A stretch of 64,000 bases of DNA, from contig CAMWNP010000001.1 in NCBI GenBank assembly GCA_947175645.1, positions 1 through 64,000 of the forward strand. The letters are read 5' to 3'. Numbering within the stretch: position 1 is the first letter of the stretch; each line of letters opens with the position of its first letter. The notes beneath the pieces are model-generated. The model was given only the letters and a program-made list of their open reading frames with translations, was not told where the DNA came from and did no database searches. The position numbers and the translations under genes are program-made. Source of the DNA: an uncultured Porphyromonadaceae bacterium. Lineage in GTDB: Bacteria; Bacteroidota; Bacteroidia; Bacteroidales; Muribaculaceae. This document shows, piece by piece, positions 16,502-30,843 of this stretch.

Positions 16502-17342
16502 TCAATAATCCGTTTCGATAAAATCTGTCGTTTGTCTTGACGCGAAGATCGCATTGGAAATGTCATTGCCATTTTCATCCTCCACTTTTTTCACTCTGAT
16601 ACCTCCAATTTGGGCATTAAGCCGACTTAGGGTGTTGTCAAGGAAAGACCGCTTATTTTTTTAGAAAATTCTTTCTTGTTGTTTTTTCATATTGGTTTTC
16701 AAGATATAGTGGGTCTATGGGTTTTTCTGTCTGCTTAACTCCGGTGGCTAAAAAACTATATTCTCCTCCATCAGACACCGCTTCCAGAATTAATCCCGGG
16801 AGACCTCCAAACTTCCAGGGACCATTTTGCAAGGGGATTTCCGGAGAGAACCATACGGTCTATTTTCTGCCATGAAAATGAGTGGTTGCATCCAAACATT
16901 CATACCCGAGAATATCTTTTGTCGCTTCTCCAATTTCCCAGTTCCAGTCATCAAGGAATTCATCGTATGCAAATCTTTCAAGACCGGATATGTCGTATGT
17001 GCTGACTTTATTTTCCGGCAGATATTTCATTATATAGTAATTACCGTCTTTTCGAGGAATATCAGTAATTTTTCCTCCAAAATAGGCGCTGCGGACCATC
17101 TCCTGATATATGGCAACTCCCCCCGGTGAGGAATTCAGGGAGTCGATAAATTCTGTCATAGGGGAATAGAATTTCGATTCCGAGGTATTGGCAAGCAGAA
17201 TATATTGATTCTTAACTTCAATTCTCCCGTTCTTCATATTAGGGGAGGTAGCGGTGTAACTGACCTCAATATTTGCTTTCCCTTGTGCTACTGTGTTAAA
17301 CGCCACTAAGCATATCACTATCATATTGACTATTTTCATCAT
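16502..17342 (-). pseudogene. GLPGLI-family gene, broken by a stop and a frameshift
   Basis: The first 160 codons encode a signal peptide (MMKIVNMIVICLVAF) and a GLPGLI-type domain that align with the intact paralogue next door. A TAG at 16860-16862 replaces the Trp codon that follows HGRK. Reading on in the same frame gives TVWFSPEIPLQNGPWKFGGL, then PGLILEAVSDGGEYSF, and KTTRKNFLK. In the A7 run (16656-16662 on the plus strand) one extra base moves the frame; after removing it the reading continues with NKRSFLDNTLSRLNAQIGG to a natural end DFIETDY. So the gene is nearly full length but carries two lesions. It lies 6 bp after the intact paralogue. Confidence 0.85.
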
Positions 17343-17348
17343 GACAAT

Positions 17349-18206
17349 CTATTTATAATCCGTTTCAATTAAATCATGGGCGGTTTTTGCTTTTACAGAT
17401 GTATCCAAGTTAAGGAGTTTTACTGTTCCGTCGGGCCATTGTTTTTCAGGATTAAGTAGAAGTTCCCACTGAAATTTACGAAAATTCTTACGTGTAGTTT
17501 TTGAATAAGATCGGTTGCCCGGACGATTAGGAATCGGTTGATTTGTGTTCTCTATTCCCGTTATTTCAAACCTATATTCCCCGCTATCAGTTTCAGCATC
17601 CATTATCAAGCCTGGAAGTCCCATAAGTTGCCATGGTCCTGATTGAACGGGAATCCCGGGTGCGAACCATGCTTTCCATTTTCGTCCGTGATAATATGCT
17701 GATGCCACCATACATTCATAACCAAGAATTATCTTAGAAGAATCTCCAATTTCCCATTCCAGATCAGATAACGGAACTGTGTAAGAAAAATCCTCTTGTG
17801 CCGCGTTGTCAGTGATTGTCAGAAAGTCATTGTTGTCGTAACGCGTCACCTGGAATTTTTTTCCATAGGATGGTAAATTTATCTTGTTTCTATCCACTGT
17901 AAGACTACCGTTCTCAATTATTAGAGCGGTAGATGCAGCAGCATTCAACAGTTGACTGTATTTTTCTTTTCCTCCTGGAGATGCCATTAAAGAGTCATAT
18001 TCCTCGGTTTTCAAACTGAAAAAACGAGAGCCGGTCGGTGAGGCGAGAAGCAGCATATTGTCTGAATCCTCAAAATCGTGACCATCTACATGGCGCCGAA
18101 GTTCAGTGTATTTATATGATGCCTTAATCCTTGCATGTTGCATGGTTTGTGCAACGGATGTGATTGTGGCAATACAAAATAAGATTAGGATAAATATTTT
18201 TTTCAT
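17349..18206 (-). CDS. GLPGLI family protein, intact copy
   Basis: A 285-residue exported protein with a signal peptide (residues 1-20, ending SVAQ) and the family-naming motif GLPGLI at 196-201, preceded by HGRKWKAWFAPGIPVQSG with Trp177 intact. GLPGLI proteins are found in Bacteroidota; their biochemical role is unknown, but they commonly stand beside a TonB-type outer-membrane protein with an N-terminal carboxypeptidase-regulatory domain, as here. The ATG overlaps the stop of that receptor gene (ATGA). It ends ETDYK. It is the only one of the three paralogues in this locus without a stop codon. Confidence 0.9.
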   Translation of the reverse strand: MKKIFILILFCIATITSVAQTMQHARIKASYKYTELRRHVDGHDFEDSDNMLLLASPTGSRFFSLKTEEYDSLMASPGGKEKYSQLLNAAASTALIIENGSLTVDRNKINLPSYGKKFQVTRYDNNDFLTITDNAAQEDFSYTVPLSDLEWEIGDSSKIILGYECMVASAYYHGRKWKAWFAPGIPVQSGPWQLMGLPGLIMDAETDSGEYRFEITGIENTNQPIPNRPGNRSYSKTTRKNFRKFQWELLLNPEKQWPDGTVKLLNLDTSVKAKTAHDLIETDYK

Positions 18207-20812
18207 TTTCTTAAAGAGATTGATAACATAAGTTCACGTCCGCGAAGCCATCGCTGGGACTCGTAGGATGATAGTTGGCTGTAGGTTATATAGTTATATG
18301 TCTTTTGATTGTATATGTTGTTCAGCGTTGCGGAGATGTCGATGCGCTTACTCAGTTTAAAGACTAACTTACTGTCAAGCAGGAGTACGTTCTTATAATT
18401 TCCCGCGGTCAGTTCATTGCAGTAGAGGTCTCCCATTAGCCGCCATTCCCATTTTGATCCTGGCATTATGTTGATGAGCAAGGAGTTCTCTATTGCGCCG
18501 ATCCATGAGTTCTTTATTCCGTTCATTTTGAGTTGTCTGTTTGAGAAGTCTATGACATAGTCAAATGTAAGCCAGTTCAGTGGTGCGCCGTTAATTTTTG
18601 CACTGACATTCCATCCCACACTCACTGAATTGACAGAGTTGTTTTCAGACATCAGATGTGTTTCCGCTCGGTTGAACGAGGCGCTGACATTTACTGAACC
18701 TCGCATGAAATCAAGAGTTTTACCTACCTTACCCATTGCCATGAAATTCTGTGCGTCGCTTTTGGCATCGGAATAGGAATACACAATATAGTCGCCATAA
18801 AGTTGCTGCATCATGGTATAAGGCAAATGAGACCATGACTGCATTGCCATAATGTTGGCGAATACTCCTTTACGGGTGTGTTTGTATGTGAAGTTACCAG
18901 ATATTCGTTGGGATGCAGTGTTGTAAAAATCATCTACTCCCTTTTTGAATGTGCGGTAGTCGGTCATGATGAATCCGGATTGAATCATATTTAAATTCAT
19001 TGGAGAACGGCCGGTGCTACCACGTACAGTCATTGAAAAGCGGTTGTTTGGTTTCCAGTTCATGCCGAGCGAGGGGGAGAAGTACACCTCGGAGCGATTG
19101 GCAAGAGCCTTGTCAAAAGTATAATTGGCAAGACTTACCGGAGCGTTGAGGGTGAAATTGACTCGCTTCACCCAGTATTCGAATCGTGGAGTTGCATACG
19201 TGGTAAAGTAATTGGTATTGAGCACATTTTCTGTCTCTCCCGATATATTTTCGACTTGCAAAGCGATTCCGCCTGTGGAGTTGTCCAAACCGTGCAGTTC
19301 AGAATTCAGTGAACGCAAATATCCTTTTATTCCTCCTTCCACGCTGATTGTTATACCTTTTATCAAGAATGCATAGGCTGCACTCTGATTTGTGTAAAAC
19401 GCATGTTCGCCAATATGCTGGCCAAGTGGATTACCGTACATGGAGACATTTAGTGTCTGGGGCAACGATTCCCATTCGGTATTGCTCTGGAATGTTACGA
19501 GGTGTTTACCGTTGAGCCTTTTGATCATCTTGAATTTGTCGGCTACATAACAGTCCGGTAATTGCGTGGACTGTTCGTTTGGCAAAGAGCCTGTCATTCT
19601 GAGTTTAAGATCATTCCAGTTAAAGTTAGCGGATAGAGTGTTGTTAATGAATGTGGCCTTTTGGTTAACCTCATATATGAACTTGCCGGAAAGCGAGTGA
19701 GTGCGGCTTCGACCGTTCCTGTCCTCGGCAATGATGCGGTTTCCTGATTCAAGGAAATATGTGGTGATATCGGTGGCTTTAGCAGTGACACGGTTGAACG
19801 AATAATCAATTTGTGACTTGAACTCGGCGTTTTTCATTTTCCAAAGAGTATTTGCAGATATCAATGCCGAGCGGTTGAAGAGAGTACGCTTCATACTTAG
19901 ATTCGGAACATCAGGCAACATTACACTGACATACCGGCTCAGTCCGGACTCCCGACGCGAAGCAAAAAAATCTGTTGCACTTGCGGAAATATCCTCACCG
20001 AAGTTGTTTGTCCTGACGGTTGTAATATTTTGAAATCCCGGCATTACGGCCATGGCAAACAGTTCTCCGTCCCACAATATCCCTTCAGGTTGTCCGGAAT
20101 AACCTACTCCGGCATCACCGTGAAAAGTCCATGCTGCTTTCGCCTTATTCTTAAGTTTAAGATTAATGGCAGCCTTGTCGGAGAAACTGATACCGGTCAA
20201 TACCTGCATTGGCTGGTGGTTTTCCAGGACCTCTACTGCTCCAACATCCTCATGGCTGATCCCGTTTGTCGCTATGCCATATTTCCCGCCAAGCAGGTCT
20301 GAACCTTCGATATAAAACTTATTGATGTCCTCACCCTGGTATTGTATTTTTCCGGTAGTACCCACGTTTATCCCGGGCATGCGTTTAAGGACGTCACCTA
20401 TGGATCTGTCCTGATTCTGCGCGAAACTGTTCACGAGATAAGATATTGTATCGCCCTGCTCCCTTATCGGATCCGCTTTTACGGTTACTTCCTTCAAAAG
20501 GGTCTGACCAGGCTCAAGTTTTATGATTACCGGAGAATCTAAATTGTTAAGTGACAGAGATTTCACTGTGAATCCTATCATTGTGACTTCAAGGGTAAAA
20601 CCGGGAGAAGCGGTCAGTTGAAGTGAGAAACTGCCGTCACCCTTTGTTGTGGTAAATTTCTTTATTTTCCCATTGTCATCTTTTATTATGACAGATGCGC
20701 CTGAAAGTGGCTCGTTATATTCCTTGTCAATGACTTTGCCTGATACGGTTATTTGGGCGTGGGCGCTATAAGAGATGAAGAATAGAAGAAGTAATATTAT
20801 AAGTCGGTTCAT
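18203..20812 (-). CDS. TonB-dependent receptor-like outer-membrane protein
   Basis: An 869-residue outer-membrane protein. After the signal peptide (1-19, AHAQ) comes a carboxypeptidase-regulatory-like beta-sandwich (about 20-105: VSGKVIDKEYNEPLSGASV), then a plug region with IGDVLKRMPGINV and FYIEGSDLLGGKYG, and a large beta barrel ending LMLSISLRK. It resembles the OMP_b-brl_3 group that pairs with GLPGLI genes. The ligand is unknown. It overlaps the broken upstream GLPGLI gene and the intact downstream one by ATGA on both sides, so three or four genes form one translation-coupled operon under the palindrome-bearing promoter at 21689-21740. Confidence 0.9.
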   Translation of the reverse strand: MNRLIILLLLFFISYSAHAQITVSGKVIDKEYNEPLSGASVIIKDDNGKIKKFTTTKGDGSFSLQLTASPGFTLEVTMIGFTVKSLSLNNLDSPVIIKLEPGQTLLKEVTVKADPIREQGDTISYLVNSFAQNQDRSIGDVLKRMPGINVGTTGKIQYQGEDINKFYIEGSDLLGGKYGIATNGISHEDVGAVEVLENHQPMQVLTGISFSDKAAINLKLKNKAKAAWTFHGDAGVGYSGQPEGILWDGELFAMAVMPGFQNITTVRTNNFGEDISASATDFFASRRESGLSRYVSVMLPDVPNLSMKRTLFNRSALISANTLWKMKNAEFKSQIDYSFNRVTAKATDITTYFLESGNRIIAEDRNGRSRTHSLSGKFIYEVNQKATFINNTLSANFNWNDLKLRMTGSLPNEQSTQLPDCYVADKFKMIKRLNGKHLVTFQSNTEWESLPQTLNVSMYGNPLGQHIGEHAFYTNQSAAYAFLIKGITISVEGGIKGYLRSLNSELHGLDNSTGGIALQVENISGETENVLNTNYFTTYATPRFEYWVKRVNFTLNAPVSLANYTFDKALANRSEVYFSPSLGMNWKPNNRFSMTVRGSTGRSPMNLNMIQSGFIMTDYRTFKKGVDDFYNTASQRISGNFTYKHTRKGVFANIMAMQSWSHLPYTMMQQLYGDYIVYSYSDAKSDAQNFMAMGKVGKTLDFMRGSVNVSASFNRAETHLMSENNSVNSVSVGWNVSAKINGAPLNWLTFDYVIDFSNRQLKMNGIKNSWIGAIENSLLINIMPGSKWEWRLMGDLYCNELTAGNYKNVLLLDSKLVFKLSKRIDISATLNNIYNQKTYNYITYSQLSSYESQRWLRGRELMLSISLRK

Positions 20813-21672
20813 AGGTCATGGGAATAATTCGTTTCTTCAAAATCATGGTTTGGTGATTGTTTCTTTTCCTTAGATGGTTTGGGTACATTACCAAACATAG
20901 CGCTCATTTTGGATGCGAAGTCAGAGTTCACATGTTTCCACTTGTTATTAAAAAACTTTTCACGGCTCACCTGCTGAACACCCCTTTTTTCAGTATAACA
21001 TAGGAACCCAACATCGGGAATCCCGTTTTGCCTTATGCTACTCGCCAGAAACAGATATTCATTATTGCTGTCATTACCTTCAAGTATCAGTCCCGGTAGT
21101 CCGCAGAGTTTCCATGGCCCATCCTGAACGGGAATCTCAGGTGTGAACCATGCTGTTCAGCGTCGTCCTCTGAAATCAGCAGTTGCCTTAAAACATTCAT
21201 ATCCCAGAATTTCTTTTGTTTCATCAAAAATTTACCAGTCCGGTTTTTCCCAATCCTCTTCATATATCCAGTGGGTCATATCGAAGTAGGAGGTTTCCGT
21301 TATTTTCCCCTCCGGATAGTTCTTATGGATTACGCTCCAGTATCTTCCGCTACGTGATAGGATTGTGCGGTCGTGTTCTTTTGGATCTTTTTCAAATGAG
21401 GCGATCTCCATTTGCCAATAAAGATCCGGCGCACAGTACATTAGTGAGTCACGGTAATAGTGGGGAACAGAACAGTAGAATGACATTCTTTCGCCGATTC
21501 TGAGCATGGTTTCTTCACTGTAGAAATCGGATTCACGTCTGGTGGTGTCTGTTATCTCTGTGCGTGTGTAGTGCACCTCAAGCACGGCAGGCTCCGGATT
21601 CCGGAACCAATTGACTGCGCCGGATGAAATTGTAACGAACGCCAGAGTTATGTAAATCAATAACCTTTTCAT
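20809..21672 (-). pseudogene. GLPGLI-family gene, broken by two in-frame stops
   Basis: One reading frame of 287 codons runs from the ATG at 21672 to a TGA at 20809-20811 and is interrupted only twice: a TAA at 21232-21234 and a TGA at 21157-21159. The parts read as a signal peptide (MKRLLIYITLAFVTISSGA), the family core, then KEILGYECFKATADFRGRR, a stop, TAWFTPEIPVQDGPWKLCGL and PGLILEGND. The TAA stands where the paralogue has Glu and the TGA stands at the Trp after GRK/GRR, the same codon that is a TAG in the other broken copy. No indel is needed. The final TGA overlaps the receptor start (ATGA). First gene behind the operon promoter. Confidence 0.85.
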
Positions 21673-29594: not shown

Positions 29595-29633
29595 CTCCTA
29601 TAGTAAATCCCAAACTTATAGAATAATTTCAGC

Positions 29634-29664
29634 AAGACGCATATCACTGAACACTGCGTTTTTT
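29634..29664 (+). terminator. Short terminator after the Crp/Fnr gene
   Basis: AAGACGCA pairs with TGCGTTTT (one G-T pair) around a 13-base loop and the T-run TTTTTT overlaps the 3' arm. It lies about 40 bp past the stop codon. Weak stem, but position and T-run fit. Confidence 0.5.
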
Positions 29665-29988
29665 GTCATTGGAGAATCTCATCTGCGGGGTTATGTGCAA
29701 AGATTTCAAGGTGTCATAATTCCCCTAAATTATACCCGATTTTTTTTGTTATAAATATTATAGAGGATATATTTTTCCCGATTATAAATAACTTTGAATT
29801 TGAAAAAGAATGTAAATTGAAAGGATTAAGAAAATATCACTTTTGTGTTGATATTTGTGCTCACTATTCAAAGTCTTTTAGGATAAAAATGAAGGAGATC
29901 TTCGATGTGATTGGAAGCAGCGACTACCTGTAAAGCCGTAACGTTTATTGCTTACTTGAGTAGACTACAAAAAATAACGGGAAATAGT
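29665..29988. other. Gene-free AT-rich stretch
   Basis: No coding frame with sense was found on either strand. A single TAACTTTG box lies on the plus strand at 29789-29796 but has no TTG at the right distance and no gene follows, so it is not called a promoter. Confidence 0.5.
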
Positions 29989-30031
29989 AAAAAAGAGGCT
30001 GCGCCGTAATCCTTCATTACTACACAGCCTC
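29989..30031 (-). terminator. Terminator of the decayed T9SS cargo gene
   Basis: On the minus strand GAGGCTGTG pairs with CGCAGCCTC (29995-30031, one G-T pair) and is followed by TTTTTT (29989-29994). It lies just beyond the stop of the T9SS-domain remnant, where its terminator would be expected. Confidence 0.7.
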
Positions 30032-30060
30032 ATACTGAGTTGCGGCTTATGATTACCGGT

Positions 30061-30335
30061 TTACAGTTGGCTCGCTAAGAAATAGGTCCAATTTTTCTTT
30101 ACCGGAAGGCTTTTCAGCGTGATATGTATTTTCGCTTCAATATACAATATATATTCCCGCCTGCAGCGAGCCAATGGTTTTAGATTTATACATTAGTTGT
30201 TTTCCTGATAAGGAATAGACTGTATACTCCTCGGCAATATCGGTGCCGACGTTGTCAATACTAGAAGTGATCTTATCAAAGTGTATCAATTTCAGCAAAT
30301 TTTGTAGCACTGAAACTGCATTATAGGTTTTGTTT
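30061..30335 (-). pseudogene. Remnant of a T9SS-secreted protein: C-terminal sorting domain
   Basis: On the minus strand one frame reads KTYNAVSVLQNLLKLIHFDK, ITSSIDNVGTDIAEEYTVYS, LSGKQLMYKSKTIGSLQAGIYIVY, then a TGA at 30137-30139, then about 24 more codons to a TAA at 30061. The VYSLSGKQL and GSLQAGIYIV strands are the hallmarks of a type A C-terminal sorting domain, whose last strand would normally read on as a G-K/R-x-V-V-K-like end. No start or N-terminal cargo part is found upstream, so only the 3' end of a lost gene remains. A terminator follows at 29989-30031. Confidence 0.6.
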
Positions 30336-30387
30336 CAATGTGAATCAGTCACATCGTTTTGCGATAACATTATATTTTACTGGGGGT

Positions 30388-30418
30388 TTGCTCATGTCGC
30401 CATTATTTTGTATCTTTG
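30388..30418 (+). promoter_or_regulatory. Promoter upstream of the SGNH/CotH pair
   Basis: TTG (30388-30390) and TATCTTTG (30411-30418) are 20 bp apart, a close fit to the Bacteroides consensus. The next confident gene starts 425 bp downstream, so the message would have a long leader. Short frames in it (for example 30430-30534, 34 codons, and 30544-30816) show no recognisable protein. Confidence 0.55.
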
Positions 30419-30843
30419 CACTCAAAGAGATGAGAATCTGCAGGCGGATTCACAAAAAAGCGATTGCTATTAGTTCCGAAAATGATGAAACTTGGGAAAT
30501 TTCTTTTTCGACTGCTAACGAGTTGTATTTATAAAAGATTTTTATGAATGGAAAGGGCAGATTGTCCATGGTTTTATATTTCCCTGGAATTCGTTATTTG
30601 GGTGCGGTGGCATTCGCAGTTTGCGTAACTAACCGAATCTTTTCAGCAATGGATAGGACGGATCGTATCTTTGATTTGTCATTTTTTATCAGCATTTATC
30701 CATGCACTCCGCTCAGCAGAGTGTGGAGCGCGATGGTTTGTCACTCAGGCGTTAAACGCATGGGGCGGATTGCTGTTGGGTTGTGCCAATATAGGTCCTT
30801 TGTCCGGATGGTGTAAATCATGAATTTCATAATCTTCCACAAT
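30419..30843 (+). other. Long leader or decayed sequence before the SGNH gene
   Basis: About 425 bases with no supported gene. A second TATCTTTG box lies at 30666-30673 without a good -33 partner; a promoter there would give a shorter leader of about 170 nt. Small hairpins such as CACTC/GAGTG near 30703-30723 are visible but unremarkable. The 90-codon frame 30544-30816 has a composition unlike its neighbours and no signal or domain. Confidence 0.4.

Follow-up and report, generated by a model that had tools for sequence, protein, structure and literature searches.

Why do two of three neighboring paralogous genes carry a stop codon at exactly the same conserved tryptophan? The question is raised by a 64,000-nucleotide stretch of DNA (the window; positions 1 to 64,000 of contig CAMWNP010000001.1, assembly GCA_947175645.1) from an uncultured Porphyromonadaceae bacterium, a relative of gut Muribaculaceae. 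Here, three GLPGLI genes adjoin a single outer-membrane receptor gene, all on the minus strand, as are the lesions described below. Copy 1 (20809..21672) and copy 3 (16502..17342) are pseudogenes, and the in-frame TGA of the former (21157..21159) and the in-frame TAG of the latter (16860..16862) share match column 164 of the family hidden Markov model (HMM) alignment with Trp177, encoded by TGG, of the intact copy 2 (17349..18206), as the initial annotation had stated. Ordinary, recent, local, and separate loss of two of three redundant GLPGLI paralogues, with the Trp codon being hit twice independently, is very probably the explanation.

Copy 1 runs from 21672 to 20809 (288 codons including the terminator) as a single frame interrupted only by the TGA and, as annotated before, by one further stop, a TAA (21232..21234) at column 139, where Glu is the commonest residue of the family (102 of 235). 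In copy 3, the C-terminus typical of the family (ending in FIETDY) lies one frame off the start frame, which reaches a TAA just past a run of seven A (16656..16662). The run and the one-base offset that had been annotated are thus seen, but which base is the extra one cannot be shown. No open reading frame (ORF) of at least 60 amino acids restarting in frame 3' of the stops was found. When the 3.17 Mb draft genome (139 contigs) was scanned with the family model, three GLPGLI genes were obtained, all in the window, and the same lesions were returned: TGA and TAA in copy 1, and TAG (and the TAA following the frameshift) in copy 3, while copy 2 was free of stops. The copies contain 10, 6, and 5 Trp codons (copies 1, 2, and 3, the last counted as far as the A run).

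The codon at column 164 was compared across GLPGLI stretches collected from 195 loci and the window with an HMM trained on 152 open frames. After removal of exact and contained duplicates, 244 stretches remained (three of them the window's), of which 234 reach the Trp column; near-identical copies and fragments may remain in this set, so that the numbers count stretches and not independent events. The site is one of four columns that are nearly always Trp (138, 164, 167, and 179) and reads TGG in 217 stretches, TAT in 12, TAC in two, and TTC, TGA, and TAG in one each, both stops being those of the window. The codon is therefore not often a stop in related genes, a point that the initial annotation had proposed to check. 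A motif scan of 398 genomes of the family, taken from a larger group and including the present one, found TAA or TGA at the site in one genome only, which is this one. For TAG or TGG, 89 of the 398 genomes matched, and 149 of the 150 places listed (counted by eye) have TGG, the remaining TAG being that of the window; the pattern is strict and covers only part of the family. Programmed readthrough or recoding would call for a stop that orthologues conserve at this position; none was encountered among the 234 stretches or, for TAA and TGA, among the 398 genomes.

Internal stops within columns 10-230 do occur in seven other genes (L104, column 82; L168, 64; L075, 179; L079, 126; L077, 160; L044, 189; L151, 93). 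As these lie at seven other columns, column 164 does not stand out in the family as a hot spot for stops, and the lesions of copies broken elsewhere are scattered; the stops of L044 and L151 sit where the matched piece ends and are therefore likely frameshifts. In L075 (from G152:C9), a TGA has replaced another near-invariant Trp, at column 179. Beyond the seven, the stops of L081 and L154 fall late in the gene, and in L122 the GLPGLI gene is split across frames. The test for a pseudogene formed by independent decay hence gives broken frames here, intact relatives, and broken copies elsewhere with scattered, unrelated lesions. This is the pattern that the initial annotation had named as pointing to assembly error or random decay, and it supports the ordinary decay which had been considered the plain explanation there. 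In-frame stops, a homopolymer frameshift, intact relatives, and an intact redundant neighbor are all shared with ordinary pseudogenes in rows of paralogous surface genes, whereas the hit at the same Trp codon in two copies and the very little other damage so far are unlike them.

Separate origins of the two stops, which had been proposed from the differing codons, are also backed by the ancestry of the genes. The closest relatives of copy 1 (69% identity) and copy 3 (63%) are different genes; the copies are therefore old paralogues, and the stops arose separately. Gene conversion or the duplication of an already broken gene was rejected on the same grounds and because no near-identical block exists between the copies: identity per block of 30 columns ranges from 29 to 70%, and the block containing the site, although the highest (0.66-0.70), is alike as a conserved motif would be.

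In the proposed course of events, copies 1 and 3 would each have lost the same Trp codon through a point mutation of their own, and copy 1 would have gained a second stop and copy 3 a frameshift at the A run, in either order. Their products would then be lost, not made by suppression, and the loss would be tolerated (or favored) because copy 2 remains and presumably goes on serving the receptor. How much coincidence this demands was estimated by simulating 4000 pairs under each of four mutation spectra, with two stops placed in one gene and one in the other; 107 intact relatives served as starting sequences, of which the columns up to 230 were used, and indels were left out. A single such Trp site represents 1.5-9% of the nonsense opportunity of a gene, depending on the spectrum, and TGG gives rise to stops more often than any other codon (17-38%, again by spectrum). 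The stop sites may coincide because TGG is most often hit and short genes carry few TGG codons: where both genes of a simulated pair had lost a TGG, 17-19% shared the stop column. The shared site is thus a mild coincidence that is favored by the TGG codon. This shows how a coincidence that looks striking can originate, namely that short genes with few near-invariant Trp codons will sometimes break at the same one. The shared column, called striking in the initial annotation, is uncommon but not extreme, and it was picked after being seen.

Several observations weigh against this explanation. Of all simulated pairs, 1.9-4.9% had a stop column in common, making the shared column a 2-5% event. 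Neutral decay to two stops took 39-47 mutations on average and brought 2.6-2.8 losses at 24 near-invariant columns in the simulation; up to column 230, copies 1 and 3 keep all 24 except at the stop, and both genes escape such losses in 6-8% of the simulated neutral pairs. The damage is hence unusually clean. The lesions might be young, the first one might have been selected, or constraint might persist, alternatives which the sequence alone cannot separate. A recent or selected loss would make the clean damage less odd, and persistent constraint would look identical. Important to note here is that the clean damage is read as recency in the account of ordinary loss, yet it speaks against old neutral decay. 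A young pseudogene would not need to show relaxed constraint past its lesion. Conservation past the stop (columns 165-225) does not fall outside what other genes show: counted from the worst, copy 1 ranks 65 and copy 3 ranks 190 of 227.

It is improbable, with a small residual chance, that the stops and the frameshift are sequencing or assembly errors absent from the organism. Homopolymers are well known for such errors, and the assembly is a draft of 139 contigs. However, three substitution-type stops and a frameshift sit together in two genes of one row, and most of the window is covered by long ORFs: between its 53 main ORFs, whose completeness was not verified one by one, there are six gaps of more than 300 bases, and two of these gaps are the pseudogenes. 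Furthermore, no stops were found in two other outer-membrane families of the genome, neither in the 18 SusC-type matches (six of them over the cut-off) nor in the three SusD-type matches.

There is a rather slight chance that truncation or loss of GLPGLI proteins has been selected for, for example if the surface system were a phage or immune target and truncation at the site were favored. Internal stops break two of three copies here versus seven genes among the 241 other stretches (columns 10-230), and other damage is scarce. On the other hand, truncation at column 164 was not seen in the relatives examined, and the receptor is open. In the modelled fold, the cut would fall where strand 175-182 begins; this strand, strands 200-206 and 211-220, and the C-terminal helices would all be missing, which makes a stable short product unlikely. 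Selection for a short N-terminal product, as suggested in the initial annotation, finds no counterpart in a natural protein ending at the site among these relatives. Naturally short versions were also sought among the ten stretches not covering column 164, which seem to be cut at contig ends, fragmentary, or pieces left by frameshifts (not each followed up). It is thus quite doubtful that the loss of full-length GLPGLI proteins at this row is under selection, either with N-terminal halves kept as short exported products or with copies being discarded because phages or the immune system put the receptor system under pressure. If true, selected loss would account for a site that was cleanly hit by nonsense mutations twice while the genes otherwise stayed almost undamaged.

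Suppression or recoding, by which UGA, UAG, and UAA would be read through to give full-length proteins, was likewise considered because the sequence past the stops is well kept. Both release factors score above their cut-offs without internal stops (RF1, 458 bits; RF2, 433 bits), and among the 53 main ORFs of the window, TAA is the terminator of 32, TGA of 16, and TAG of 5. Forty-five tRNA matches exist in the genome; no stop anticodon is found among the 43 called by ARAGORN (30 loci and 13 further stretches), tRNA-Sec and SelB not having been searched for. Selenocysteine machinery would leave TAG and TAA unexplained. Readthrough would require all three stop codons to be decoded; both release factors are there, the called tRNAs include no stop anticodon, relatives keep Trp, and copy 3 is also frameshifted. 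Recoding is therefore rejected as extremely improbable, and with it the stop-codon suppression suggested earlier.

The two tRNA matches not called by ARAGORN lie outside the window (G000:C31:2515-2743; L242, 316-421 and 429-544, minus strand), adjoining a tRNA-Arg(ACG), and resemble the tRNA-Ser(GCT) and tRNA-Tyr(GTA) of relatives. The tRNA-Ser-like gene holds ~27 extra bases in the D region and the tRNA-Tyr-like gene ~24 in the anticodon loop. In the relatives L244-L246, L248, and L250, normal tRNA-Tyr and tRNA-Ser copies are found inside tRNA arrays. Two adjoining tRNAs with seemingly unrelated insertions are odd, and our guess is that the tRNA array is phage-like. A second tRNA-Trp(CCA)-like gene of the same genome, also outside the window (G000:C9:51085-51165; L241), scores 39.9 bits and has a longer anticodon arm; its Trp(CCA) anticodon is therefore less sure.

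All three genes belong to the GLPGLI family TIGR01200 (curated cut-off, 50 bits): copy 2 scores 151.8 bits, and copies 1 and 3 score 160.1 and 157.2 bits with their stops read through. Taken in pieces, the N-terminal part of copy 1 (25.8 bits) falls under the cut-off, whereas its C-terminal part (75.1 bits) and the N-terminal part of copy 3 (61 bits) exceed it. Copy 2 (285 amino acids; model pLDDT 93.3) also exceeds the cut-off of the Pfam family PF09697 (Porph_ging). Under the standard code, no product of copy 1 or copy 3 could include the GLPGLI motif of the family (TIGR01200/PF09697). The receptor-like gene between copies 1 and 2 (18203..20812) is open and encodes 869 amino acids with a CarboxypepD_reg-like domain, and its TonB plug match falls under Pfam's cut-off. 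ATGA overlaps join the 3' end of copy 1 to the receptor start and the receptor stop to the start of copy 2; the four genes are therefore probably an operon-like row with one transcript and coupled translation, as judged from these overlaps.

Wider decay of this operon was considered and rejected, as the receptor is open and its excess of private changes is not convincing. It has five private changes at otherwise invariant columns, ranking fourth of 64 by raw count and tenth of 52 per branch length (77 receptors, from which those at most 56% identical and near-duplicates above 97% were dropped, and for the second rank also terminal branches of at most 0.05). Over the whole receptor set, which is of mixed divergence, it has 11 private changes versus a median of three. 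For the family, the two broken copies beside an open receptor suggest that single GLPGLI copies can go while the receptor and one copy stay. Of the 80 receptors fetched from relatives, 76 gave a single continuous match. The other four are L167, an uninterrupted frame of 1003 residues whose match is split, L163, which begins right at the edge of its locus, and the fragmented L151 and L118. L151 thereby combines a receptor in pieces with a split GLPGLI gene. Either the GLPGLI-receptor operon decays now and then in relatives too, or their drafts hold errors.

GLPGLI proteins are named in lists without a function (PMC9603813, PMC8757827, PMC5771137), and none is given in the passages found by a full-text search for 'GLPGLI'. 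Copy 2 is predicted to have the fold of the PNGase F-II N-terminal domain; in a fold-only test, its model showed this same fold, clear of the other rows compared. With 19.1 bits against a cut-off of 27.6 bits, copy 2 is not filed as a member of the corresponding Pfam family PF22252. PNGF-II has a chain of 544 amino acids versus 285 in copy 2, for which no glycosidase domain is reported, and a shared fold does not show function. Perhaps GLPGLI proteins are also tied to the LolA/RseB fold. The predicted PNGase F-II N-terminal fold (perhaps LolA) may thus offer a testable lead for GLPGLI proteins.

Elsewhere in the window, 1.2 kb without a long ORF extend from 29595 to 30819. A short ORF on the minus strand of this interval (30137-30310) looks like the C-terminal end of a secreted protein.
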